DNA from: Flavobacterium gillisiae
Lineage (GTDB): Bacteria > Bacteroidota > Bacteroidia > Flavobacteriales > Flavobacteriaceae
Assembly: GCF_900107635.1 (NCBI RefSeq)
Contig: NZ_FNRD01000006.1
Location: 62,001 to 126,000 of the forward strand
DNA length: 64,000 nt
Direction: 5' to 3'
Shown: positions 3,094-44,792 of the stretch, piece by piece
Position numbering within the stretch: the first letter of the stretch is position 1
Layout: every line of letters starts with the position of its first letter
Program-made: the position numbers and the translations under genes
The notes under the pieces: model-generated
Seen by the model: only the letters and a program-made list of their open reading frames with translations
What the model was told of the DNA's origin: nothing
Databases searched by the model: none

Positions 3094-4188
3094 TTATTGA
3101 TGTTTTCTTTTGATATTTATATGAGTAAGATTATAAACTTGATCCATGGGCTCAGTAAACTGAATCATTGATAACCCTAAATCATCATCTTTTTCTTTAC
3201 TTGGAATAGTTACATCAAAAGGTATTCCCCCAGGTCCAGATGCTGGAACTTTAAAAGTAACAGAAGACGATTTACCTCCATCCATTTCCATCCATTTTTC
3301 AGTTGTCCAATTACCAATAGCAGGCAGGTTCCAATTACCAACAAAATAACCATAATCATACCATTTTTTATTTCTAAAATGACTTCTTTTACGTTTATCA
3401 AATTCTTTTTCTTTAATTACAACACCTTTTGAATCTAAAATAACAATTCTAAATTCTAATTTTCCTAGAACCCATGGCTCAACAGCACCCAAATCTGTTA
3501 CTTGAATTATCCCCCCGTATTCTGGTTGTCCATCAAATCTTGATTGCGGTGTACTTGTGAAAACTTGAGAAGATATTATCTCATCTCCTACTGAAGACAT
3601 TATTACTCCTTCTTCTTCTTGTCCAATTACCCAAACATCATTTTCCCATGAAAAATCTTCAGTAATATTGTCATAAAAAATTAATTCACCATCAAAAGTT
3701 AAGACATAACCAGGACTTGAGTTGGTACCTATATCATAATCATCTTGATTTACAAGTACCATTTCTTCAGCTAATCTTGCTGTTGCAGAAGACTTTTGAT
3801 TTAATCTACTTTCTTCAATAGTTTCTGCCCTAGGATAAAAAAGCAATGGCTCAATACCACCGTTTAAAAATTTTATTTTAGTAGCCAATGCTGCTAATTC
3901 CAAAATAGACTCACTAAAACTAGGATTGTCCTTATATTCTGTAATAATTTTAGATAAATAAACATTATACTCACCATGTTCCTGTTTTAAACATTCATTC
4001 AAAACAAACTGTTTAAATTGTTTATTTTTGGACATAACCAAAATTGGAACAATCGCTTTTTGTTTTAATTCAAAGATTTCTTTTGTATTGTCATTTGTTA
4101 ATTGAGAACTCAAAACATCCCGAGATGAATTATCTTCACAACCAAACAATCCTAATGTAACCACAAATAAAATAATAAGTTTTTTCAT
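3094..4188 (-). CDS. Predicted lipoprotein of unknown function
   Basis: A 364-residue protein with a lipoprotein signal: a basic start, a hydrophobic stretch and the lipobox LFGCED (Cys near residue 17). The acidic residues right after the Cys fit the surface-export signal proposed for Bacteroidota lipoproteins. The mature part has an N-terminal helical region with Lys-rich segments, then a mixed alpha/beta part containing SSPGYVLTFDGELIFYD and a Ser/Gly-rich stretch near the C-terminus. No domain is recognised. It is the first gene of a pair with the exported beta-barrel-like protein. The two could form a lipoprotein-barrel unit, but this is inference from position only. Confidence 0.7.
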   Translation of the reverse strand: MKKLIILFVVTLGLFGCEDNSSRDVLSSQLTNDNTKEIFELKQKAIVPILVMSKNKQFKQFVLNECLKQEHGEYNVYLSKIITEYKDNPSFSESILELAALATKIKFLNGGIEPLLFYPRAETIEESRLNQKSSATARLAEEMVLVNQDDYDIGTNSSPGYVLTFDGELIFYDNITEDFSWENDVWVIGQEEEGVIMSSVGDEIISSQVFTSTPQSRFDGQPEYGGIIQVTDLGAVEPWVLGKLEFRIVILDSKGVVIKEKEFDKRKRSHFRNKKWYDYGYFVGNWNLPAIGNWTTEKWMEMDGGKSSSVTFKVPASGPGGIPFDVTIPSKEKDDDLGLSMIQFTEPMDQVYNLTHINIKRKHQ

Positions 4189-4329
4189 TTTCTTGATTTA
4201 AAATTAATAATTTTTTTCTGATATATCATAACAAAATTGAAAAGAAAAAAAACTCTTTAACAAATTATTAATAAAATATTAACAAAAAATAAAATATCAT
4301 ACAATACTCATTATCACATTTTAAAAATT

Positions 4330-5502
4330 TTAATCCAACGCCTGCTCTAAATCGGCAATGACATCTTTCACGGTTTCTAGTCCTACAGAAACACGTACCA
4401 ATCCATCAGTAATACTTACCGCTAATCTTTCATCAACTGATAATTTACTATGCGTTGTAGAGGCAGGATGTGTCACAATGGTTCTCGTGTCACCTAAATT
4501 TGGCGAAAGCGAACACAGTTTTATCTTATCTAAAAAATTTCGTCCTGCTTCTAGTCCACCTTTTATTTCGAAAGCGACAATATTACCACCCGCTTTCATC
4601 TGCTTTTGAGCAATTTCATATTGTGGATGTGATTTTAAGAACGGATATTTTACACGATTCACATTTGGATGCTGTTCTAAAAACTCAGCCACTTTCATTG
4701 CATTTTCGCAATGTCTATCTAAACGAATCGCTAACGTCTCTAAACTCTTTGATAAAACCCACGCATTAAATGGAGATAATGAAGGCCCCGTTAATCTACT
4801 AAACAAATAAATTTTATGAATCAATTCGGGTTCACCGACAGTTACACCACCTAAAACTCTTCCTTGACCATCCATTAACTTTGTAGCCGAATGAACCACT
4901 AAATGCGCTCCCCATTTTATAGGTTGCTGCAAATAAGGCGTTGCAAAACAGTTATCGATTACTAAAATCAAATTGTGCTTCTTGGCAATTTTCCCTAGCA
5001 ATTCCAAATCAATAATATCAACTGCAGGATTTGTAGGTGATTCAGCAAAAAGAATCTTTGTATCAGGCGTGATGAAACTTTCAATAGTTTCTGGCTCGTT
5101 TATATCAAAATACGATGTTTGAATATTCCACTTTGGAAAATAATTGATAAACAACGAATGTGTCGCTCCGAAAACACTACTGGAAGAGACAATATGATCA
5201 CCTGATTTCAATAATGCAGCCAAGGTTGAATACACTGCGGCCATTCCTGAAGCAAAGGCAAAACCAGCAGTTGCCCCTTCCATCTTGCACACTTTTTCCA
5301 CAAACTCGTTCGTGTTCGGGTTACTGTAACGGCTATAAATGTTTCTGTCTTTCTCTTCGGCAAATGAGGCACGCATATCTTCGGCATCTTCAAATACAAA
5401 ACTAGAAGTTAAGTATAATGGAACGGAGTGCTCTAAATATTGGGTGCGTTCTAATTGGGTACGGATGGCTTCGGTTTCAAAACCAAATTTTTCTTCGTTC
5501 AT
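4330..5502 (-). CDS. metZ: O-succinylhomoserine/O-acetylhomoserine sulfhydrylase-like PLP enzyme (MetZ-like)
   Basis: A 390-residue member of the Cys/Met metabolism PLP family (gamma-synthase/sulfhydrylase type). Visible landmarks are VPLYLTSSFVFEDAEDM, YSRYSNPN, SGMAAVYSTLAALLKSGDH, the PLP-binding Asp in LVIDNCFATP, and the Schiff-base Lys in HSATKLMDGQGRVLGG. Enzymes of this type add sulfide or cysteine to an activated homoserine on the way to methionine. The ATG at 5502, giving MNEEKFGFET, is preferred to the upstream in-frame start at 5538 because it matches the family's usual N-terminus. It is the last gene of a run with the OsmC gene and the MetX-AK-HSD fusion. Whether the substrate is the acetyl or succinyl ester is uncertain; the neighbouring acetyltransferase-like domain favours acetyl. 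Confidence 0.85.
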   Translation of the reverse strand: MNEEKFGFETEAIRTQLERTQYLEHSVPLYLTSSFVFEDAEDMRASFAEEKDRNIYSRYSNPNTNEFVEKVCKMEGATAGFAFASGMAAVYSTLAALLKSGDHIVSSSSVFGATHSLFINYFPKWNIQTSYFDINEPETIESFITPDTKILFAESPTNPAVDIIDLELLGKIAKKHNLILVIDNCFATPYLQQPIKWGAHLVVHSATKLMDGQGRVLGGVTVGEPELIHKIYLFSRLTGPSLSPFNAWVLSKSLETLAIRLDRHCENAMKVAEFLEQHPNVNRVKYPFLKSHPQYEIAQKQMKAGGNIVAFEIKGGLEAGRNFLDKIKLCSLSPNLGDTRTIVTHPASTTHSKLSVDERLAVSITDGLVRVSVGLETVKDVIADLEQALD

Positions 5503-6137: not shown

Positions 6138-9100
6138 TTAGCCTCTATCAGACAACCTCAAAATATCTCCAAATACTCCTCTTGCAGTTACAGCAGAACC
6201 TGCTCCTGCGCCTTGAATTACAATTGGTCTATCTCCATAAGATTCGGTATATATTTCGAAGAAAGAATCAGAACCTTTCAATCCACCTAAAGCAGTATCC
6301 GAAGGTACGGAAACTAATTTTACTTCCAAAATTCCTTTGTCATGCTGCAAATCTCCAGACAACTCCCCTATGTATCTCAAAACGTGATTCGGTTTTTGTT
6401 CGCTTTTTATTTTATCGTAAATAGGATCAAACTCTTCCAATTTAGTTAAGAAATCAGCGGCACTTCCTTCACGTAAGTGTTCCGGAATTAAATTCTGAAT
6501 AGCAACCTCATCAAATTCGTTTTGTAAATCCAATTCTCTTGCTAAGATCAATAATTTTCTTCCCACGTCATTCCCGCATAAATCTTCTCTTGGGTCTGGC
6601 TCTGTGAATCCACTATCAATTGCTTCTTTTAATATTTCGCTAAACGGAACATCTTTGGCAGAGAAATGATTGAACAAATAACTCAGAGTTCCTGAGAATA
6701 CCCCTTTAATTTTTGTAATGTTTTCACCCGAAAGATGTAGTAATTTAATAGTATCAATCAATGGTAATCCTGCTCCTACATTAGTTTCGTACAAATAATT
6801 CTTTTGATTTTTTTCTAAAACACCTCTTAGTTCTTTATAAAAACCATAACTCAATGTATTAGCCACTTTATTTGATGAAATTAAATCAAAGCTACTGTCT
6901 ACTAGCGGAATATAATTTTCTACAAAAGTTGCCGATGCTGTATTATCAATAGCGATCAAATTCTCTAAATGATGTTCAGTTGCATACCCGATAATATCAT
7001 TTAAAGTGTAACCAATTCCATCAGTATCCAGCTCTTTTTTCCAGTTTGCGTTAATTCCGTTTTTATTAAGTAATACTTTTTTAGAATTGGCAATAGCAAA
7101 AACATTGAGTTTAATATCTTTTCGTTTTTCGATAGCTGCAGCTGACTCTAAGATTTGATTTATCAAAGTCCCTCCCACTAATCCATGTCCGAAAATAGCA
7201 ATATTTATTTTCTTGGCTACGCCAAAAATCTCTCCATGAATAACATTCAACGCTTTGTTTAGTTCTGATTTTTTAACCACCAAACTAACGTTCTTACCCG
7301 TTACTGTATTGTTGAAAAGAATAGGGACAATTTTGTTTTTTATCAATGCCGTGTAAGGCTTATGAAACGTGCTCAAATCCTGACCTATTATTGAAATCAC
7401 AGAAACATTGTCTACCACTGTAATCTTATTGACATCCTTAGAATAGAAATCATTTTCGAATTCCTTTTCTAATTCGATCATTGCTTTTGTTGCTTTATCA
7501 GCAGCAACCACTAGTCCAATTCCTCTTTCTGAAGAACCTTGCGAAATAATACTTACACTTATATCGTTATCCCCCATCACTCTAAAAATTCGAGCATCAA
7601 CTCCCGTTTTTCCAAGTAATCCTCTTCCTTCTAAGTTCACCAAAGAAACATTTTCTAAAACAGATAATGTTTTAATTCCGCTCGCATTAGAATTTGACGT
7701 AATTAAAGTTCCATTATTTTCGTGATTGAACGTATTCAGAATTCGAAGTGGAATATTTTTTTCTAATAACGGAATGATGGTTTTGGCGTGCAAAATATTC
7801 GCTCCAAAATTAGCAATTTCATTTGCTTCATTATAGGACAAAGATTCAATCTTTTTAGCATCTAAAACTAATTCAGGATTGGCAGTGTAAATTCCGTCAA
7901 CATGAGTGAAGTTTTGCAATTCTTCGGCATTGATATAATTAGCAACCAATGATGCCGTATAATTACTTCCGTTTCTACCTAAAGTAGTGGTTTCATATTT
8001 AACATTCGAACCAATAAAACCAGTAATCACCAAAACAACATCTTTGTTTTCTTTAAAAATTTGGATGAAATTCTTTTTAGAAACGGCGTCTAAAGGTTGT
8101 GCATCGCCAAAATTAGAATCGGTAATAATTAACTCTCTGGTGTCTGCTAGTTTAGCAGGAATACCTCTTTCATTCAATAAAAATACCAATAATTTAGCTG
8201 CAAGTACTTCGCCATGTGCTAAAACTTGATCCTGAATCTTCACGCTAAAATCGCCAATCAAGCTAACACCTTCAAAAAGCTTATCTAATTTTTCAAATTC
8301 AGTCGAAAAATCAACTTTATCAAAACCATCTTTTTGGTAGGTTTTAAAACTTTCTAAAAGCGGTTTGTAATTTCCATTTTTAACTGCAATAGTAAGAATA
8401 TCGTCCAGCTCATCCGTTGCCTTTCCTCTTGCTGAAACAACAACAGCAATTTTCTCTTGTTGCTTTATCTTACCTTCAATAATATCCAAAACGGTGTCGA
8501 TACCTTTGCCGTTTGCTAAAGATTTACCGCCAAATTTAACTATTTTCATCTGCTTTTTATTTTTGAAAACAACTTCTAATAAATTGTCTAATTGTTCATA
8601 TTCCATCAAAAAGGCATCGTGCCCATGTTGTGAGTCAATCTCACTATAGAATACATTATTTTTAAATTTTTTAATCTCGTTATAGGTTTCTCTATTCTCC
8701 TTTGCTGTAAAAAACAAATCCGAATTGATTCCTACAATGTATATATTGGCGTCCACTTTAGATATAATTGATTCTAATGTCTCGTGATTCCGAGTGATAT
8801 CAATCGTTTTTAAAAGTTGGTTCATCATCTTATATGCCGAAAGCTGAAACCTTTTTTCTAATTTTTCGCCATGGTAATTCAACCAACTTTCCACTTGAAA
8901 AGTTTCTAGTTGTATATTGATGTCTCTATTAAATTTTTCTTTGAAAGATTCTGGCGTGCGGTAGCATAACATAGCGTGAATACGCGCATCTTCGATAGGT
9001 TTTTTAGAATTATTTAGAATTTGCTCTTGCAAATAGCAATTAGCAATCAACCAGTCAGTCGCTTTCCAATCTGTAGCAATAGGAATAAAGTTTTGAGCTA

Positions 9101-9530
9101 ATTTTGGCTCTAAGGCCAAAATTTCCCAAGCAATTCCACCACCCACAGAACCTCCGATGAGAGCGAATAAATTACCAATCTTTAAAACGCGAAGTCCTTC
9201 GATGAAAATTCTAGCAATATCTCTTGCGATAAAATCTCTGTAATTTTCGATAGTAGCCGAATTGAAACCATTACCTGGCACGTCAAATGAGACAATGGTA
9301 TATTTTCTAGTGTCAATGGTTTTATCTACTCCCACGATATCATTCCACCAGCCAGATTCACCAATTACTTGTGAATTTCCAGTCAAGGCATGATTAATTA
9401 AAATAATGGGGGCTGTATGCAATGGAGCGCCAAAAACCTGAAAACTTAAGTTTAGCGCAGCATAAAAAGCACCATTATACGTGGTGAAATTTTGTATGGT
9501 AATATGTGTTGGTTTATTTTCCAATTTCAA
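6138..9530 (-). CDS. thrA: Trifunctional fusion: MetX-like homoserine acyltransferase, aspartokinase, homoserine dehydrogenase
   Basis: An 1130-residue cytosolic protein with three enzyme parts. Residues 1-325 are a MetX-type alpha/beta hydrolase fold: INHALTGNSQV, the nucleophile elbow IGGSVGGGIAWE (Ser128), and a C-terminal SQHGHDAFLMEYEQL with the catalytic His. Residues 328-770 are an aspartokinase with ACT domains, starting MKIVKFGGKSLANG; GRNGSNYTAS is the phosphate/aspartate loop. Residues 775-1130 are homoserine dehydrogenase: the NAD(P) loop GHGLVGG at 781-787, SSNKVANT, and the catalytic segment TEPDPREDLCGNDVGRK. The fusion therefore covers aspartate phosphorylation, homoserine formation and homoserine acylation. 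A SAM-I riboswitch precedes it, so it should be repressed by S-adenosylmethionine. An odd point is Lys in place of the usual Thr in KFGGTS. Confidence 0.92.
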   Translation of the reverse strand: MKLENKPTHITIQNFTTYNGAFYAALNLSFQVFGAPLHTAPIILINHALTGNSQVIGESGWWNDIVGVDKTIDTRKYTIVSFDVPGNGFNSATIENYRDFIARDIARIFIEGLRVLKIGNLFALIGGSVGGGIAWEILALEPKLAQNFIPIATDWKATDWLIANCYLQEQILNNSKKPIEDARIHAMLCYRTPESFKEKFNRDINIQLETFQVESWLNYHGEKLEKRFQLSAYKMMNQLLKTIDITRNHETLESIISKVDANIYIVGINSDLFFTAKENRETYNEIKKFKNNVFYSEIDSQHGHDAFLMEYEQLDNLLEVVFKNKKQMKIVKFGGKSLANGKGIDTVLDIIEGKIKQQEKIAVVVSARGKATDELDDILTIAVKNGNYKPLLESFKTYQKDGFDKVDFSTEFEKLDKLFEGVSLIGDFSVKIQDQVLAHGEVLAAKLLVFLLNERGIPAKLADTRELIITDSNFGDAQPLDAVSKKNFIQIFKENKDVVLVITGFIGSNVKYETTTLGRNGSNYTASLVANYINAEELQNFTHVDGIYTANPELVLDAKKIESLSYNEANEIANFGANILHAKTIIPLLEKNIPLRILNTFNHENNGTLITSNSNASGIKTLSVLENVSLVNLEGRGLLGKTGVDARIFRVMGDNDISVSIISQGSSERGIGLVVAADKATKAMIELEKEFENDFYSKDVNKITVVDNVSVISIIGQDLSTFHKPYTALIKNKIVPILFNNTVTGKNVSLVVKKSELNKALNVIHGEIFGVAKKINIAIFGHGLVGGTLINQILESAAAIEKRKDIKLNVFAIANSKKVLLNKNGINANWKKELDTDGIGYTLNDIIGYATEHHLENLIAIDNTASATFVENYIPLVDSSFDLISSNKVANTLSYGFYKELRGVLEKNQKNYLYETNVGAGLPLIDTIKLLHLSGENITKIKGVFSGTLSYLFNHFSAKDVPFSEILKEAIDSGFTEPDPREDLCGNDVGRKLLILARELDLQNEFDEVAIQNLIPEHLREGSAADFLTKLEEFDPIYDKIKSEQKPNHVLRYIGELSGDLQHDKGILEVKLVSVPSDTALGGLKGSDSFFEIYTESYGDRPIVIQGAGAGSAVTARGVFGDILRLSDRG

Positions 9531-9605
9531 ATCTTTTATTGATTTTGATTTGTATTTGGAAATATTAGAAAGAAAAAACTAGGCAAATACTAGAGAAATT
9601 CTTGT

Positions 9606-9712
9606 TGTTATCTTTCCACTTTTAGGAGTGGTAGAATGCAGCACCTTCTTCGATTTCTCGAAGGGTTGCTAAGGCTTCATCGGGTCTAATCCCTCGTCCT
9701 TTCTTTATAACA
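9606..9712 (-). promoter_or_regulatory. SAM-I (S-box) riboswitch
   Basis: Read on the minus strand, the segment shows the S-box core in order: GAGGGA, GACCCGATGAAGCC, GCAACC, AAGGTGCTGCATTCTACC and GGAAAGATAAC. The outer P1 helix pairs TGTTAT (9707-9712) with ATAACA (9606-9611). S-box aptamers bind S-adenosylmethionine and switch off methionine genes. The aptamer ends 75 bases before the start of the MetX-AK-HSD gene. Only a weak hairpin with a T run (CTAG...CTAGTTTTTT, about 9570-9590) follows, so the switch may act on transcription or on translation. Confidence 0.92.
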
Positions 9713-9740
9713 TTTCAATACGTGTGTGAACTTATTACTG

Positions 9741-9889: not shown

Positions 9890-10096
9890 TTAAATAAAAA
9901 GTGTGTCATTTTCTTTTGAATACATCAAAAGTTGTAATGAGTTGACTACATTTTTAGCATTTTTCCCTTTTGATATATTTATACCCAATCTTGGATTAAT
10001 TAGTTCATCAATTGTAATTACATTGTTGCTGTTTTTTTTACCTCTTAAGTTTCTAAGAAGTTCCAATGCCCTTGAAAATCTGTTTGGTGCGCTCAT
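9890..10096 (-). CDS. Small conserved-looking protein of unknown function (paralogue of the ORF at 12483-12680)
   Basis: A 68-residue, basic, soluble protein starting MSAPNRFSRALELLRNLR. It resembles the 65-residue product at 12483-12680 over the C-terminal two thirds: IDELINPRLG against IDLVHPRIQ, then a Lys-rich linker, then NSLQLLMYSKENDTLFI against NSLMVQMYSQENEVLFI, both ending exactly at LFI-stop. The shared pattern shows that both ORFs are real genes. No known domain is recognised. It lies downstream of two leader-ORF/terminator units and upstream of the SAM-I riboswitch, so its expression is probably tied to cysteine/methionine supply. Function unknown. Confidence 0.7.
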   Translation of the reverse strand: MSAPNRFSRALELLRNLRGKKNSNNVITIDELINPRLGINISKGKNAKNVVNSLQLLMYSKENDTLFI

Positions 10097-10158: not shown

Positions 10159-10194
10159 AAAAAAATCCTTTTGGAAAAATTACCAAAAGGATTT
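10159..10194 (-). terminator. Attenuator terminator A2
   Basis: A perfect 12-bp stem (10163-10174 with 10183-10194, loop of 8) is followed on the minus strand by a T run. It lies 28 bases after the stop of the leader ORF MFCAKFC. The CCTTTTGG in its first arm can pair with CCAAAAG just after the leader stop codon, giving an alternative antiterminator. Confidence 0.85.
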
Positions 10195-10221
10195 AAGCTA
10201 TAAAAACTTGTACTTTTGGAA

Positions 10222-10245
10222 TCAACAGAACTTTGCGCAAAACAT
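10222..10245 (-). CDS. Candidate cysteine leader peptide A2 (MFCAKFC)
   Basis: An 8-codon ORF, ATG to TGA, encoding MFCAKFC with two Cys in seven residues. It parallels MICAKAMMCVCFR at 12002-12043: both start M-x-CAK, and both stop codons are followed by nearly the same bases (GATTCCAAAAGTAC here, GATCCAAAGTAT there). These bases are complementary to the first arm of the next terminator. The likely role is a sensor: a ribosome stalled at Cys codons leaves the antiterminator free. This interpretation is inference from sequence arrangement. Confidence 0.6.
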   Translation of the reverse strand: MFCAKFC

Positions 10246-10320
10246 TGCGACAAGGATCTGAATCTTATTATTTAAAAATATCTTCATTTAATTTATTTAA
10301 CTTGAAAGTTACTATTTCTT

Positions 10321-10358
10321 TAAAAATAAGAGCCTCCCAATTATCTTGGGAGGCTCTT
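10321..10358 (-). terminator. Attenuator terminator A1
   Basis: A perfect 13-bp, GC-rich stem (10328-10340 with 10346-10358, loop of 5) with an AT-rich tail ending in several T on the minus strand. The GGGAGCTTG at the end of leader ORF A1 mimics the second arm and can pair with CAAGAGCCTCCC of the first arm, so an antiterminator is possible. Confidence 0.85.
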
Positions 10359-10390
10359 GCTATATTATATTTTTATATAATTTAATGCAA

Positions 10391-10450
10391 TTACAAGCTC
10401 CCGAATTTCTTCGATACGACTACAAATTGTTTACAAATATTTAAATTCAT
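10391..10450 (-). CDS. Candidate cysteine leader peptide A1 (MNLNIC...)
   Basis: A 19-residue ORF encoding MNLNICKQFVVVSKKFGSL. Its first six residues match MNLNVC of the leader at 12211-12261, and the DNA of the first 17 bases is nearly the same. The single Cys is codon 6; the last codons (GGG AGC TTG) overlap the antiterminator bases. A ribosome reaching the stop would cover them and favour terminator A1, while one stalled at Cys6 would not. It lies about 175 bp downstream of metY on the same strand. No strong ribosome binding site is visible. Function is inferred. Confidence 0.6.
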   Translation of the reverse strand: MNLNICKQFVVVSKKFGSL

Positions 10451-10625: not shown

Positions 10626-11900
10626 TTACAATAAATCAAAAACAGCTTTTAGATCCGCTTTTAAATCTTCAATATCCTCTAATCCGACAGAAAGACGAAT
10701 CAAATCTTTAGAAACTCCAGAAGTTAATTGTTGCTCTTCTGACAATTGTTGATGCGTTGTACTTGATGGATGAATAATTAAGGATTTTGTATCACCAATA
10801 TTTGCTAAAAGCGAAAACAATTTTGTGTCATCCGCTACTTTTTTAGCAGCATCAAAACCACCTTTTAAACCAAAGGTCACTAATCCGTTTTGTCCTTTTG
10901 GTAAATACTCTTGTGCTAAATCATAATATTTGCTTGATTTCAATCCTGGATAATTTACCCAAGCTACTTGCTCTTGCAACTCTAACCATTGTGCTAAAGC
11001 TAATCCGTTTTCACTGTGTTTTTTCACACGAATGGATAATGTCTCTAATCCTTGAATAATTTGAAAAGCATTGAAAGGACTCAAAGCCGCTCCATAATCA
11101 CGCAGTCCTTCAATTCTAACTTTTGCTATATAAGCAGCAGCTCCTAATGCATCATGATAAACTAAACCATGATAACCCGGATTAGGTTCTGTAAATTCAG
11201 GAAAACGACCACTACTCCAATCGAAAGTTCCAGCATCAATAATAGCACCACCTAATGAAGTTCCATTACCACAGATGTATTTAGTTAAAGAATGAATTAC
11301 AATATTCGCTCCATGTGCAATAGGGTTTAACAAAGCAGGTGAAGCGACCGTATTATCAACTACAAACGGCACTTTTAAAGCCTTAGCTACTGCTGCTATC
11401 GCTTTTAAGTCCAATACATCTAATTTAGGATTCCCTAAACTTTCTACAAAAATTACTTTGGTATTGTCATTGGCAGCTTTCGCAAAATTTTGTGCATCCG
11501 AAGGATCTACGAAAGTAGTTGTTATTCCTAATCTTGGTAAAGTAGCATTTAGTAAATTAAATGTTCCACCGTACAAACTACTTGAAGCTACAATATGATC
11601 TCCCGTTTTTAACATGGTCAATAAACCTGTTGCAATTGCTGCTGTTCCAGATGCGGTAACGACTGCCGCAATTCCTCCTTCAAGCGCTGCTAAGCGTTGT
11701 TCTAAAATATCGTTTGTTGGATTATTTAATCTTGTATAAATATAACCTGCTTCGGTTAATCCAAATAAATTAGCCGCATGCTCTGAATTATCAAACACAT
11801 AAGATGATGTTTGGTAAATAGGCACTGCTCTTGTCCCTGCGTGTTTTGTTACATCATGTCCGGCATGTAAGGCATTTGTTTCAAATTTTAATGTGCTCAT
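10626..11900 (-). CDS. metY: O-acetylhomoserine aminocarboxypropyltransferase/cysteine synthase (MetY)
   Basis: A 424-residue PLP enzyme of the Cys/Met family with the longer MetY architecture. Landmarks are METNALHAGHD-like start (FETNALHAGHDVTKHAGTRA), VPIYQTSSYVFDN, YTRLNNPTND, SLYGGTFNLL, the PLP Asp in FVVDNTVASP, and the Schiff-base Lys in IHSLTKYICGNGTSLGG. It forms homocysteine from O-acetylhomoserine and sulfide. It is the only gene of its transcript before the next leader array and is preceded by a 360-base leader with two cysteine-codon ORFs, each followed by a terminator. Expression therefore probably rises when cysteine is short. Confidence in the family is high. Confidence 0.95.
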   Translation of the reverse strand: MSTLKFETNALHAGHDVTKHAGTRAVPIYQTSSYVFDNSEHAANLFGLTEAGYIYTRLNNPTNDILEQRLAALEGGIAAVVTASGTAAIATGLLTMLKTGDHIVASSSLYGGTFNLLNATLPRLGITTTFVDPSDAQNFAKAANDNTKVIFVESLGNPKLDVLDLKAIAAVAKALKVPFVVDNTVASPALLNPIAHGANIVIHSLTKYICGNGTSLGGAIIDAGTFDWSSGRFPEFTEPNPGYHGLVYHDALGAAAYIAKVRIEGLRDYGAALSPFNAFQIIQGLETLSIRVKKHSENGLALAQWLELQEQVAWVNYPGLKSSKYYDLAQEYLPKGQNGLVTFGLKGGFDAAKKVADDTKLFSLLANIGDTKSLIIHPSSTTHQQLSEEQQLTSGVSKDLIRLSVGLEDIEDLKADLKAVFDLL

Positions 11901-11936
11901 AATTTTAGTTTTTTGATTTTATTCTTTTTTATTAAA

Positions 11937-11973
11937 TGAAAAACCCTTTCAGATAGGTATCCAAAAGGGTTTT
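11937..11973 (-). terminator. Attenuator terminator B2
   Basis: On the minus strand AAACCCTTT and AAAGGGTTT form a 9-bp stem (11941-11949 with 11964-11972), followed by T residues, 36 bases before metY. The first arm region CTTTTGGAT can instead pair with ATCCAAAG directly after the stop codon of leader B2. Confidence 0.8.
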
Positions 11974-12001
11974 AAGTTGTATTATAAACTTATACTTTGG
12001 A

Positions 12002-12043
12002 TCACCTGAAACAAACACACATCATGGCTTTTGCACAAATCAT
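12002..12043 (-). CDS. Candidate cysteine leader peptide B2 (MICAKAMMCVCFR)
   Basis: A 13-residue ORF with three Cys (codons 3, 9 and 11, all TGT) and three Met. It starts M-x-CAK like leader A2 (MFCAKFC), and the sequence after the stop is conserved between the two. It stands between terminators B1 and B2 upstream of metY. Stalling at the Cys codons would expose the post-stop ATCCAAAG and let it pair with the first arm of terminator B2. No clear Shine-Dalgarno sequence is seen, which is usual in this group. Role inferred. Confidence 0.65.
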   Translation of the reverse strand: MICAKAMMCVCFR

Positions 12044-12136
12044 AGACTTGACAATTGATGAGTTGATTTGTTTAAAATTTAGATTAACCATTTTGAATTG
12101 TTATTTATTATTTTAAAAATATCTTTGTTTAGTTTT

Positions 12137-12169
12137 CAAAAAAAAAGCTTCCCTTTTTGAGGAAAGCTT
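12137..12169 (-). terminator. Attenuator terminator B1
   Basis: A 9-10 bp stem on the minus strand (AAGCTTTCC with GGGAAGCTT, one G-U pair; arms 12161-12169 and 12145-12153) is followed by eight T. It lies about 40 bases after leader ORF B1. TATAGCA directly before the hairpin is shared with terminator A1. Confidence 0.85.
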
Positions 12170-12210
12170 ATGCTATATTTAAGATTTTAAATTGAAGCAA
12201 TAGACTACCC

Positions 12211-12261
12211 TCAGGAATTTTCCTGCATGGCTTTTGACTTATTACAAACATTTAAATTCAT
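12211..12261 (-). CDS. Candidate cysteine leader peptide B1 (MNLNVC...)
   Basis: A 16-residue ORF encoding MNLNVCNKSKAMQENS. It has an unusually strong ribosome binding site for this organism, AAGGAGG, six bases before the ATG (12267-12273), so translation is likely. The beginning matches leader A1 (MNLNIC). The Cys is codon 6. After it comes a small hairpin (CAGGA/TCCTG) and then GAGGGTAGT, which can pair imperfectly with the first arm of terminator B1. It is the first leader of the metY transcript. Function inferred from position and duplication. Confidence 0.65.
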   Translation of the reverse strand: MNLNVCNKSKAMQENS

Positions 12262-12482
12262 GATATCCTCCTTTTGTTGCAACAAATTTGCTCACAATAA
12301 TTTATATATCCTAATATATTTTAAAAAATAACAAATAAAAGCCTTTCTGTTAAAACACAACTAATCAATTATTTAAAAAAAAATCATAAAACTTAATGCT
12401 ATTTTTAATAATAGATTTATTTTAAATGATACAAAGTATTTTTGCTCATATTACATTTCTTTAATTTAGAATCGACTTTCAA

Positions 12483-12680
12483 TTATATGAACAACACTTC
12501 ATTTTCTTGAGAATACATTTGTACCATTAATGAATTTGAAGTCTTTTTTAACCCAAAAGAGTTGGTTCTTCTAACTTGAATCCTTGGGTGAACTAAATCA
12601 ATAATAGGCTCTCCCCTTTTTCCTTTTTGTAACTTGCTTTCAAAATTTAATGTTAACGAAGTTGTTTTTGATGTTTTCAT
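12483..12680 (-). CDS. Small protein of unknown function (paralogue of the ORF at 9890-10096)
   Basis: A 65-residue, strongly basic protein, MKTSKTTSLTLNFESKLQ at the start and MYSQENEVLFI at the end. It shares with the product at 9890-10096 the pattern ID-x-L/V-x-PR, a basic linker, NSL, MYS-x-EN-x-x-LFI and the exact C-terminus. The N-terminal 20 residues differ. No known domain, signal peptide or membrane segment is seen. It lies 222 bp upstream of the metY leader array on the same strand and could share a transcript with it. Function unknown. Confidence 0.7.
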   Translation of the reverse strand: MKTSKTTSLTLNFESKLQKGKRGEPIIDLVHPRIQVRRTNSFGLKKTSNSLMVQMYSQENEVLFI

Positions 12681-12868
12681 GATAATTATTTTTAGCAGTT
12701 TGTTTTTCCTCTCTCCTATTTAAGCTACTTAAATCCTTTAGCCTAAATCCTTCCATCCATTATAATCTACACTATTGCTAACACTACATAACCGCTAAAG
12801 ACAATGATAAAACACGTCTCTAGAAACGCTATAACAAATCTTTCATTAAGGTTACCTGATAAGTAATT

Positions 12869-17563: not shown

Positions 17564-17571
17564 CACTCAAT

Positions 17572-17676
17572 TACAAGAGGAAAAATTTGAACTGATTGCA
17601 ACCTCTTCATAATGAAACGAATTCATTATGGATGCTGAAAAATTTTCAGTAGAAAAAATGCTAAAGCAGAAACTCT
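17572..17676 (+). promoter_or_regulatory. SAM-II riboswitch upstream of metK
   Basis: The conserved order of SAM-II is visible: P1 strand AAGAGG (17575-17580), then ATTTGAACTGATTGCAACC, the P1 partner CCTCTT, and the pseudoknot strand ATGCTAAAGCAGAAACTC (17658-17675). Between the partner and the pseudoknot strand two extra hairpins are inserted (CATAATGAA...TTCATTATG and CTGAAAA/TTTTCAG). SAM-II binds S-adenosylmethionine and usually hides the ribosome binding site, so MetK synthesis should fall when its product is plentiful. The aptamer lies about 60 bases before the metK start. Confidence 0.85.
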
Positions 17677-28166: not shown

Positions 28167-28180
28167 GCGCTGATTTTTTT

Positions 28181-28286
28181 AGCCCAGATAGAAGTGGAAA
28201 TCCTTTTCCTTTTTTCTTTAAAAAGGAAAAGATTGCAACGAATAGCTGGACACGAGCGCAGCGAACTCACGAAGTAAATAGCTCCT
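28181..28286 (-). repeat. Dispersed hairpin repeat, copy 2
   Basis: On the minus strand: GGAGCTATTT, then CCAGCTATTCGTTGCAATCTT, a core hairpin (CTTTTCC.../...GGAAAAG, 28203-28231), then AAGGATTTCCACTTCTATCTGGGCTA. The arms match the copies at 17316, 31901 and 44570. The outer edge contains the last two bases of the stop of the DUF5686 gene. Confidence 0.8.
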
Positions 28287-31900: not shown

Positions 31901-31980
31901 CAGGAGCTATTTCCGGCTATACGCTATATCTTCCTGTGGCTAAAGGAGCCACACGAAGGATGTCGCTACTATCCGGGCTA
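31901..31980 (+). repeat. Dispersed hairpin repeat, copy 3
   Basis: Reads CAGGAGCTATTTCCGGCTAT, ACGCTATATCTT, core hairpin GTGGCT-AAAGG-AGCCAC (31936-31952), then AAGGATGTCGCTACTATCCGGGCTA in two parts. Same arms as the copies at 17316, 28181 and 44570. Lies between the divergent pdhB and etfB genes. Confidence 0.8.
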
Positions 31981-32044
31981 CGAAAACGTAATAGTTCATT
32001 AAAAAAAACTATGCACGCATAGTATATTATTCGAATTAATATCC

Positions 32045-44504: not shown

Positions 44505-44569
44505 GCAACTAACTTTCCTGAAAATTAATTCTTTTCTTGAAGCAGAGTGATTCTCGTTTTAAACAGACA

Positions 44570-44655
44570 TCCCTCCTGCTCTACGCTATATCTTTTATCT
44601 CGTCTCGTTCTAAAAACGAGACGAGATAAAAGGATGCCGCTGCGATCAGGGCTAC
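44570..44655 (+). repeat. Dispersed hairpin repeat, copy 4
   Basis: Arms CTCTACGCTATAT and AGGATGCCGCTGCGATCAGGG as in copy 3, around a perfect 18-bp stem (44592-44609 with 44615-44632, loop CTAAA). The stem sequence has nothing in common with the cores of the other copies, while the arms do. Confidence 0.8.
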
Positions 44656-44792
44656 TAAGGAAATTGTAGTTTTCATAATTATGTTTCTTAAAATACACTT
44701 ACTTTTACTTTGTTGTAAGAAGACTAATTATATTTGACCATATAGATTAACTTGTTATTACACAAGTAACAAACACCGACCGCTCAGATATG

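Follow-up and report, generated by a model that had tools for sequence, protein, structure and literature searches.

Candidate tandem methionine and cysteine attenuators upstream of metY in Flavobacterium

The metY leader and its surroundings

We analyzed a 64,000-nucleotide stretch of Flavobacterium gillisiae DNA (contig NZ_FNRD01000006.1, positions 62,001 to 126,000), referred to below as the window. In it, metY is preceded on the minus strand by two serial units, each made up of a leader open reading frame (ORF), an antiterminator arm at its stop codon, and an intrinsic terminator. Read toward metY, the features are as follows.

12283 to 12314, minus strand: promoter-like element (TTAGG at 12314-12310, a 19-nt gap, CAAATTTG at 12290-12283), 21 nt upstream of leader 1
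12211 to 12261, minus strand: leader ORF 1 (unit 1), MNLNVCNKSKAMQENS; similar leader 1 peptides occur in relatives
12208 to 12213, minus strand: unit 1 antiterminator arm UGAGGG, stop codon included, complementary to UCCUCA at 12163-12158
12138 to 12169, minus strand: intrinsic terminator 1 (hairpin 12169-12145, T run 12146-12138)
12002 to 12091, minus strand: leader ORF 2 (unit 2), MVNLNFKQINSSIVKSMICAKAMMCVCFR, 29 amino acids; start revised by comparison with relatives
11995 to 12002, minus strand: unit 2 antiterminator arm AUCCAAAG at the stop codon, with a conserved pairing to the 5′ arm of terminator 2 (UUUUGGAU, 11966-11959)
11939 to 11973, minus strand: intrinsic terminator 2 (hairpin 11973-11940, five T at 11943-11939)
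10626 to 11900, minus strand: metY, O-acetylhomoserine sulfhydrylase, the putatively regulated gene (TIGR01326, 629.7 bits; cut-off, 495.1)

A preliminary description of this DNA had proposed five elements here (an ORF, a terminator, a cysteine-bearing ORF, a second terminator, and metY), and all are in place on the minus strand. The pairing that it drew between stop-region bases and the first arm of the next terminator is likewise present in both units (UGAGGG with UCCUCA; AUCCAAAG with UUUUGGAU). Two details needed revision. The strong AAGGAGG site noted upstream of ORF 1 exists in the window but not in the relatives used in the leader 1 comparison, which are mostly A-rich there, and we dropped the idea of a Shine-Dalgarno-driven leader 1 because the site is unconserved. 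ORF 2 does bear cysteine codons and does end at 12002, but the internal ATG proposed as its start did not hold: an ATG at the position of 12091 is retained in L010, L019, L020, L023-L025, and L028-L032, and the internal ATG is TTG in L020, so that the start is most likely the ATG at 12091.

The window's unit 2 leader contains three Cys codons. Its unit 1 looks worn, the leader having a single Cys codon and, besides the start codon, a single Met codon. Both leaders share CAAAAGCCATG, which was observed twice in the window against an expectation of 0.07. Across the whole genome CAAAAGCCATG gave 9 matches versus 3 for the control; we rejected it as a genome-wide leader marker because only two of the nine, both 5′ of metY, resemble leaders.

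No Rfam family matched the metY leader of the window at gathering level. Phe_leader (RF01859) stayed below its threshold there (25.9 bits versus 55; E, 0.084), and the region from 11600 to 12700 gave no SAM riboswitch match up to an E value of 5, nor any at gathering level; an RF00162 aptamer upstream of the window's metY is thus absent.

Downstream of metY come a second tandem pair (10450-10163), a small gene designated smallB, a SAM-I riboswitch, and a metX-thrA fusion gene (6138-9530). These features, together with a second small gene, smallA, are listed below.

12483 to 12680, minus strand: smallA, 65 amino acids, ending in QMYSQENEVLFI
10391 to 10450, minus strand: second tandem set, leader ORF 1, MNLNICKQFVVVSKKFGSL
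10326 to 10360, minus strand: second tandem set, terminator 1
10222 to 10287, minus strand: second tandem set, leader ORF 2, MKIFLNNKIQILVAMFCAKFC
10213 to 10219, minus strand: second tandem set, antiterminator arm CCAAAAG directly after the stop (pattern match)
10163 to 10194, minus strand: second tandem set, terminator 2
9890 to 10096, minus strand: smallB, 68 amino acids, ending in LLMYSKENDTLFI
9605 to 9713, minus strand: SAM-I riboswitch (RF00162, 72.4 bits) before the metX-thrA fusion gene

A SAM-II riboswitch was also detected at 17571-17674 on the plus strand (49 bits), so that SAM-I, SAM-II, and leader-peptide elements occur together in the window. Three Flavo-1 RNAs are present as well (28177-28256, 31906-31983, and 44568-44657); the function of this family is not known, according to the available text of PMC9723704.

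Leader units in related genomes

The preliminary description had staked its reading on the recurrence of such units in relatives and on conservation of their Cys codons and pairings. A genome scan for metY yielded 80 loci, in each of which up to 1,000 nt upstream was scanned, contig permitting, and in 65 of these metY is preceded by one or more units, each a leader ORF followed by an intrinsic terminator. Of the others, 12 have a SAM-I riboswitch (11 Aquimarina and 1 Spongiivirga), L088 has neither, and two Flavobacterium loci (L017 and L021) have no unit upstream of metY. With the window counted, the 66 unit-bearing loci include 46 type 1 units and 57 type 2 units, combined within the stretch scanned as both types (37 loci), type 1 only (9 loci), or type 2 only (20 loci). 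These counts leave out leaders with a Cys/Met score below 2.5, those beyond −950, and MLK/MRLKF peptides belonging to an unrelated upstream terminator. A separate set of metY loci from the genus (38 matches, giving 30 loci, 29 of them examined) had a unit in 29 of 29, although some of these come from the same genomes as the first set and some are surely the same species as the 80.

The genome of L026 contains two metY genes (874-2166 and 4001-5287); a separate tandem pair of leader units, different in type, precedes each of them. In loci filed under Lentimicrobium, Lutibacter, and Nitrotoga (L028, L055, and L087), both metY and its leaders are of the Flavobacterium type, and the metY tree places these loci within the Flavobacterium group; they are possibly misbinned contigs.

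A pattern built for unit 2 matched 53 times in 49 of 121 genus genomes, versus 5 times for the reversed control. Among the 29 matches examined, one of them the window's own, 28 precede a metY or metX-thrA match and nothing was found after the one in L120; a further 23 had no locus, and L132 was left out because its match lay off the expected place. The same pattern gave 14 matches in 297 genomes of the family outside the genus (reversed control, 5). We did not accept these as units: to judge from the matched strings alone, they lack a CCAAAAGG or CCGAAAGG third arm.

Units of the CCTTTTGG type also occur downstream of metY in 36 relatives (the scan required at least 2 Cys), with a core variant in L079. 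Many of these downstream leaders end in ICVCVC or a close variant; the smallB leader of L133 has neither Cys nor internal Met. The small proteins form a family, mostly of 56 to 70 amino acids, whose conserved part is the C-terminal end, approximately SLLFxMYSxENExLFI, up to the stop. At cut-off the family matches nothing in Pfam, and NCBIfam has no match either. It gave 39 matches in 29 of 61 genus genomes, and all 30 loci examined adjoin metY or metX; at least one match outside those 30, in G010, sits elsewhere. It is possible that the small proteins are partners of MetX/MetY or arrest peptides, the latter being considered because it is the C-terminal end that is conserved.

Elsewhere in the same genome, near position 4730 of contig C21 (L221), a Cys-run ORF, MNNRQLRFYFKISISLGNCCCCF, lies about 50 nt upstream of a cysE-like gene that is followed by cysK. 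Of the 27 closest loci, the own genome included, 5 have such an ORF before the cysE-like gene (L221, L223, L224, L235, and L247), with runs of CCRC in L224 and CCCCC in L247. Inspection by eye found no terminator after the own-genome ORF. These ORFs resemble the polycysteine ORFs of mycobacteria.

Codon content of the leaders

At least one Cys codon is present in 57 of 57 unit-2 and 46 of 46 unit-1 leaders, in a set picked by Cys/Met score. The scans favor leaders bearing these residues, so their presence is partly a product of selection; their number and frame were not selected in this way. Met codons are as frequent as Cys codons: the unit-2 leaders contain 271 Met and 264 Cys, and the unit-1 leaders contain 113 Met and 93 Cys. 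Striking examples from outside the window's clade are MKTIANNNMMMCCQVMQMCIPICCCQK, MNTTKKIMMNRMMMHMCCITNPHCQKRKT, and MKFTICNMCCRMMWKSPQRKPIA, and in leaders such as MKTIANNNMMMCCQVMQMCIPICCCQK Met codons are about as numerous as Cys codons. The combined Met and Cys fraction is 0.347 in the leader frame of unit 2, versus 10.9% and 4.2% in the other frames, and 0.214 in unit 1, versus 11.0% and 5.1%. Per ORF, the median number of these codons is 10 in unit 2 and 5 in unit 1, compared with a mean of 1.35 in 4,125 background mini-ORFs of the same loci, some leaders among them. The metY units therefore begin with a short leader ORF enriched in codons for the end products, as in attenuators of the trp/his type.

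The preliminary description spoke of a cysteine attenuator. Its Cys codons are borne out but cysteine by itself is not, and we prefer to speak of a methionine and cysteine attenuator because Met equals Cys in frequency and is nearly absent from the masked positions described below. A codon-position test for selection on the leader peptides was set aside because length shifts inside groups confound it. In L062 and L070, a frame change near the end of the leader turns CCCQK into LLLPK and CCAAAAG is retained, which argues that the RNA arm matters there and the last residues do not.

Competing RNA pairings

Fifty-five unit-2 RNAs (52 distinct rows) were aligned; they were picked by the exact core CCTTTTGG, so this core is invariant by construction. 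The terminator comprises 12 pairs, with 99.4% of cells paired and two pairs changed on both sides (slid controls, 21 to 82% paired). The antiterminator, formed by the CCAAAAG-like arm at the leader stop and the terminator 5′ arm, comprises 8 pairs with 99.5% of cells paired (slid controls, 23 to 67%), and its pair 47-109 appears as GU, UA, AU, and GC, with 15 two-sided cells. For both structures the paired cells, two-sided cells, and covariation score exceeded all 500 shuffles; the count of two-sided pairs, among rows that are related, did not (199 of 500 shuffles reached it for the terminator and 500 of 500 for the antiterminator). Two partners thus share one 5′ terminator arm, which is fixed through the choice of sequences for the alignment; the partners themselves vary separately through G-U changes. 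Both unit-2 pairings are therefore conserved in relatives, and so are the Cys codons in the score-picked leaders; the lack of conservation that the preliminary description had named as refuting was not observed.

In unit 1 the arms are shorter and change together with the terminator between clades (TGTGGG/CCCACA, GCAGAG/CTCTGC, and GCGGG/CCCGC). When arms were swapped among the 46 loci, the own mean was 15.54 versus 12.82 for swapped combinations, with 0 of 500 swaps as high; the same control for unit 2 gave 19.89 versus 18.4, again with 0 of 500 as high. Taken locus by locus, complementarity beat shuffles at the 5% level in 16 of 46 unit-1 and 43 of 57 unit-2 cases, the unit-1 complementarity being short (5 to 7 bp in most loci). 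An intrinsic terminator thus lies between leader ORF and gene, as in the trp/his type, and a mutually exclusive antiterminator pairing is present, in unit 1 by the swap control and weakly in single loci.

Folding of the window's unit 1 gave the antiterminator when the RNA began at the leader 1 stop, and the terminator plus a hairpin over the stop region when it began 22 nt further upstream. For unit 2 the terminator was the most stable fold in both stretches tried, even with the arm free, so the switch would have to be kinetic, resting on the order of synthesis.

Ribosome position and promoter-like element

The geometry of masking was examined for unit 2 with an assumed ribosome footprint of 13 nt. 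The arm could be placed in 54 of 57 leaders, beginning between −16 and +5 of the stop codon; as searched, it was not found in L055, L069, and L087. In all 54, a ribosome at the stop would cover the arm, and at least one Cys and at least one Met codon lie 13 nt or more upstream of it, where a stall would free it. Under this footprint, then, the stop-bound ribosome masks the antiterminator and a stalled one does not. Arm-freeing codons average 2.91 Cys and 4.72 Met per leader, and masked-position codons average 1.83 Cys versus 0.06 Met. A point against the model is that a stall at the late Cys codons of many leaders would mask the arm and favor termination. Also against it count the worn unit 1 and the short run of five T at terminator 2 in the window, the absence of any unit in L017 and L021, and the L133 leader, which lacks Cys and internal Met.

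Among the 46 unit-1 loci, 34 have a [TC]AnnTTTG box within the 70 nt upstream of leader 1, mostly 18 to 22 nt away, compared with 2 after shuffling. None of the 57 unit-2 leaders is preceded by such a box (2 after shuffling). Relaxing the box raised the counts to 37 of 46 and 3 of 57, respectively. TAnnTTTG is the −7 consensus in the available text of PMC7366714. The presence of a promoter-like box before unit 1 only suggests that both terminators lie on one transcript. The layout of ribosome-controlled attenuation in two serial units, proposed in the preliminary description, is thus supported by conserved leaders, conserved pairings, and a single promoter-like element. Its label of an AND-like gate fared less well: one promoter-like element with two terminators in series stands, but the arrangement is better called a multiplicative series, "AND gate" being apt if the two units were to sense different things.

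SAM-I riboswitches and the history of metY control

In a tree of 93 MetY proteins, one group (support, 99/97) contains 68 rows, nearly all filed as Flavobacterium. Of these, 65 have units, one is the additional metY of L026, and two, L017 and L021, lack units. The rows neighboring this group carry SAM-I riboswitches upstream of metY: 12 of the 13 others among the 80 loci have one, and so, by the Rfam model, do all 7 loci (L171-L177) that represent six further genera of the family. Among 12 unit-bearing Flavobacterium loci scanned, none has SAM-I upstream of metY and all 12 have it downstream, as in the window; the same scan found no SAM-I riboswitch in L017 or L021. Because the group with units stands beside rows bearing SAM-I, leader peptides would, most simply, have replaced SAM control on the branch leading to the unit-bearing group.

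L179, L180, and L182, which belong to two other families of the order, have leaders and terminators upstream of metY; these leaders are Met rich and free of Cys, and Rfam gave no SAM match in the three loci. Pairing at the stop region stands out clearly in L182, where it spans 9 bp and 7 of 1,000 shuffles did as well. In L180 it is borderline (52 of 1,000), and neither unit of L179 exceeds chance (443 and 308 of 1,000). The Met-rich, Cys-free leader with the 9-bp pairing reads MNYLNMYMRMLMPRLT. L181 has no unit before metY, and the L178 locus offers just 15 nt of upstream sequence.

Proposed mechanism and alternatives

We conclude that metY is very probably under the control of two serial ribosome-mediated transcription attenuators. 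From the arrangement we infer that the leaders are translated and that ribosomes stall on them, as well as which signals act, how events are ordered, and what a pair of units gains. Transcription would start just upstream of leader 1, and a ribosome would translate the leader of each unit while RNA polymerase makes that unit. With ample charged Met- and Cys-tRNA, the ribosome would reach the stop and cover the arm there, which is UGAGGG in unit 1 and CCAAAAG-like in unit 2. The terminator hairpin would then form and end transcription. A shortage of either charged tRNA would instead stall the ribosome at an upstream Met or Cys codon, leaving the arm free to pair with the terminator 5′ arm, so that the polymerase would continue. 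Since both terminators must be passed, leakage would be multiplied down and the response sharpened. The cell would thus probably turn metY on when methionine and cysteine run short.

As to what is sensed, dual reading of Met and Cys charging is favored over either amino acid by itself, and the signal is probably something other than cysteine alone. Sensing of cysteine only, with Met codons serving other ends such as keeping the peptide or RNA sequence, we regard as doubtful. It would agree with the Cys codon found in every leader of both types (a set chosen by Cys/Met score), with the ICVCVC or similar ends of many smallB leaders (at least 2 Cys being required by that scan), and with the poly-Cys ORF upstream of the cysE-like gene in the same genome; it leaves unexplained why Met is as frequent as Cys and confined to arm-exposing positions, why leader 2 of L033, L037, and L039 has more Met than Cys, and why the metY leaders of L180 and L182 are Met rich, lack Cys, and are followed by a terminator. 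The step catalyzed by the metY product yields homocysteine, a precursor of methionine, and masked positions are nearly free of Met and often hold Cys. These points, the Cys-free leaders of L180 and L182, and the genome's own cysK (over the cut-off), which adjoins the cysE-like gene (below the cut-off), would suit units that sense methionine only, their Cys codons being incidental or tuning basal termination. Against such units stand the Cys codons in every metY unit counted, the runs of them (CC, CCC) in many relatives, and the three in the window's unit 2, and we consider this reading unlikely.

Two further explanations do without amino acid supply. Methionine and cysteine are copper ligands, and the nascent Cys/Met-rich peptides might bind copper or another metal and exert their effect by stalling, in the manner of the CruR copper-sensing upstream ORFs; copper-responsive upstream ORFs are described in the available text of PMC9426467 and PMC9973294. 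The downstream genes are nevertheless those of methionine biosynthesis, Cys positions vary between clades, the rival pairings are conserved, and the frame-changed leaders of L062 and L070 lose the final CCC yet retain the RNA arm, which together make metal binding very improbable. Hardly credible at all is constitutive partial termination by terminators accompanied only by decayed ORFs: terminators by themselves would lower expression, and the leaders of the window's unit 1 and of L133 are poor in Met and Cys, but both mutually exclusive pairings are conserved and the Met and Cys enrichment is confined to one frame.

Returning to dual methionine and cysteine sensing, we put at even chances a broader hypothesis of a dual-amino-acid attenuator class, in which serial units read the charging of Met-tRNA and Cys-tRNA with a sharp, near-AND output, took metY over from SAM-I in Flavobacterium, and have similar Met-codon counterparts that arose apart in other families of the order. 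If dual reading is correct, these ribosome-mediated attenuators would read elongator Met codons and would also govern a companion family of small-protein genes. At one gene within one bacterial family, sensing of tRNA charging by the ribosome would have replaced a SAM riboswitch. The genus would also offer a natural series of single and double attenuators for measuring the benefit of tandem units, and sulfur amino acid control in a large environmental genus would become directly testable, for example in Flavobacterium johnsoniae.

Comparison with known systems

The trp, his, leu, thr, and phe operons of Proteobacteria are the classical cases of ribosome-mediated attenuation. Like trp/his-type attenuators, the metY units have a leader ORF with product codons and a competing antiterminator and intrinsic terminator before a biosynthetic gene. 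They differ in that there are two in series, in their use of Met plus Cys, in their host phylum (Bacteroidota), and in that the antiterminator arm is a single segment at the stop that pairs directly with the terminator 5′ arm.

The cysteine leader peptides of Actinobacteria, which the title of a 2020 paper by Canestrari (doi 10.1111/mmi.14498) reportedly terms leaderless, share with the metY units a leader ORF with Cys codons, in runs, before sulfur amino acid genes. According to the available text of PMC1262725, their Cys runs lie close to the stop codon, and those of Mycobacterium lack a conserved hairpin that might serve as a terminator. In contrast, the metY units have conserved terminators and antiterminators and equally many Met codons. 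By the definition in that text, the window's units, which have terminators and lack a Cys run, are not polycysteine leader ORFs.

In Salmonella, the mgtCBR leader has two tandem attenuators sensing different signals, ATP and proline, and the metY leader resembles it in having two leader ORFs and attenuators serially in one leader RNA (PMC3641672, available text). Unlike mgtCBR, the metY units use the same kind of codons in both and precede a biosynthetic gene; as both carry Met and Cys codons, different signals of the mgtCBR type are not indicated. Within the same genus, leader-peptide attenuation before amino acid operons has been noted in F. psychrophilum, with conserved elements upstream of pheA and hisG; the available text of that source (PMC9723704) names no Met/Cys leader, metY, or tandem unit. 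A search confined to open-licence PMC papers found no Met/Cys attenuator at metY in Bacteroidota.

The best reading of this comparison may be that the metY units represent ribosome-mediated attenuation, an already known mechanism, in a Met/Cys form that would be new at metY. The SAM-I riboswitch (RF00162), located ahead of metY in related genera and ahead of metX-thrA in the window, senses SAM, whereas the metY units would read tRNA charging.
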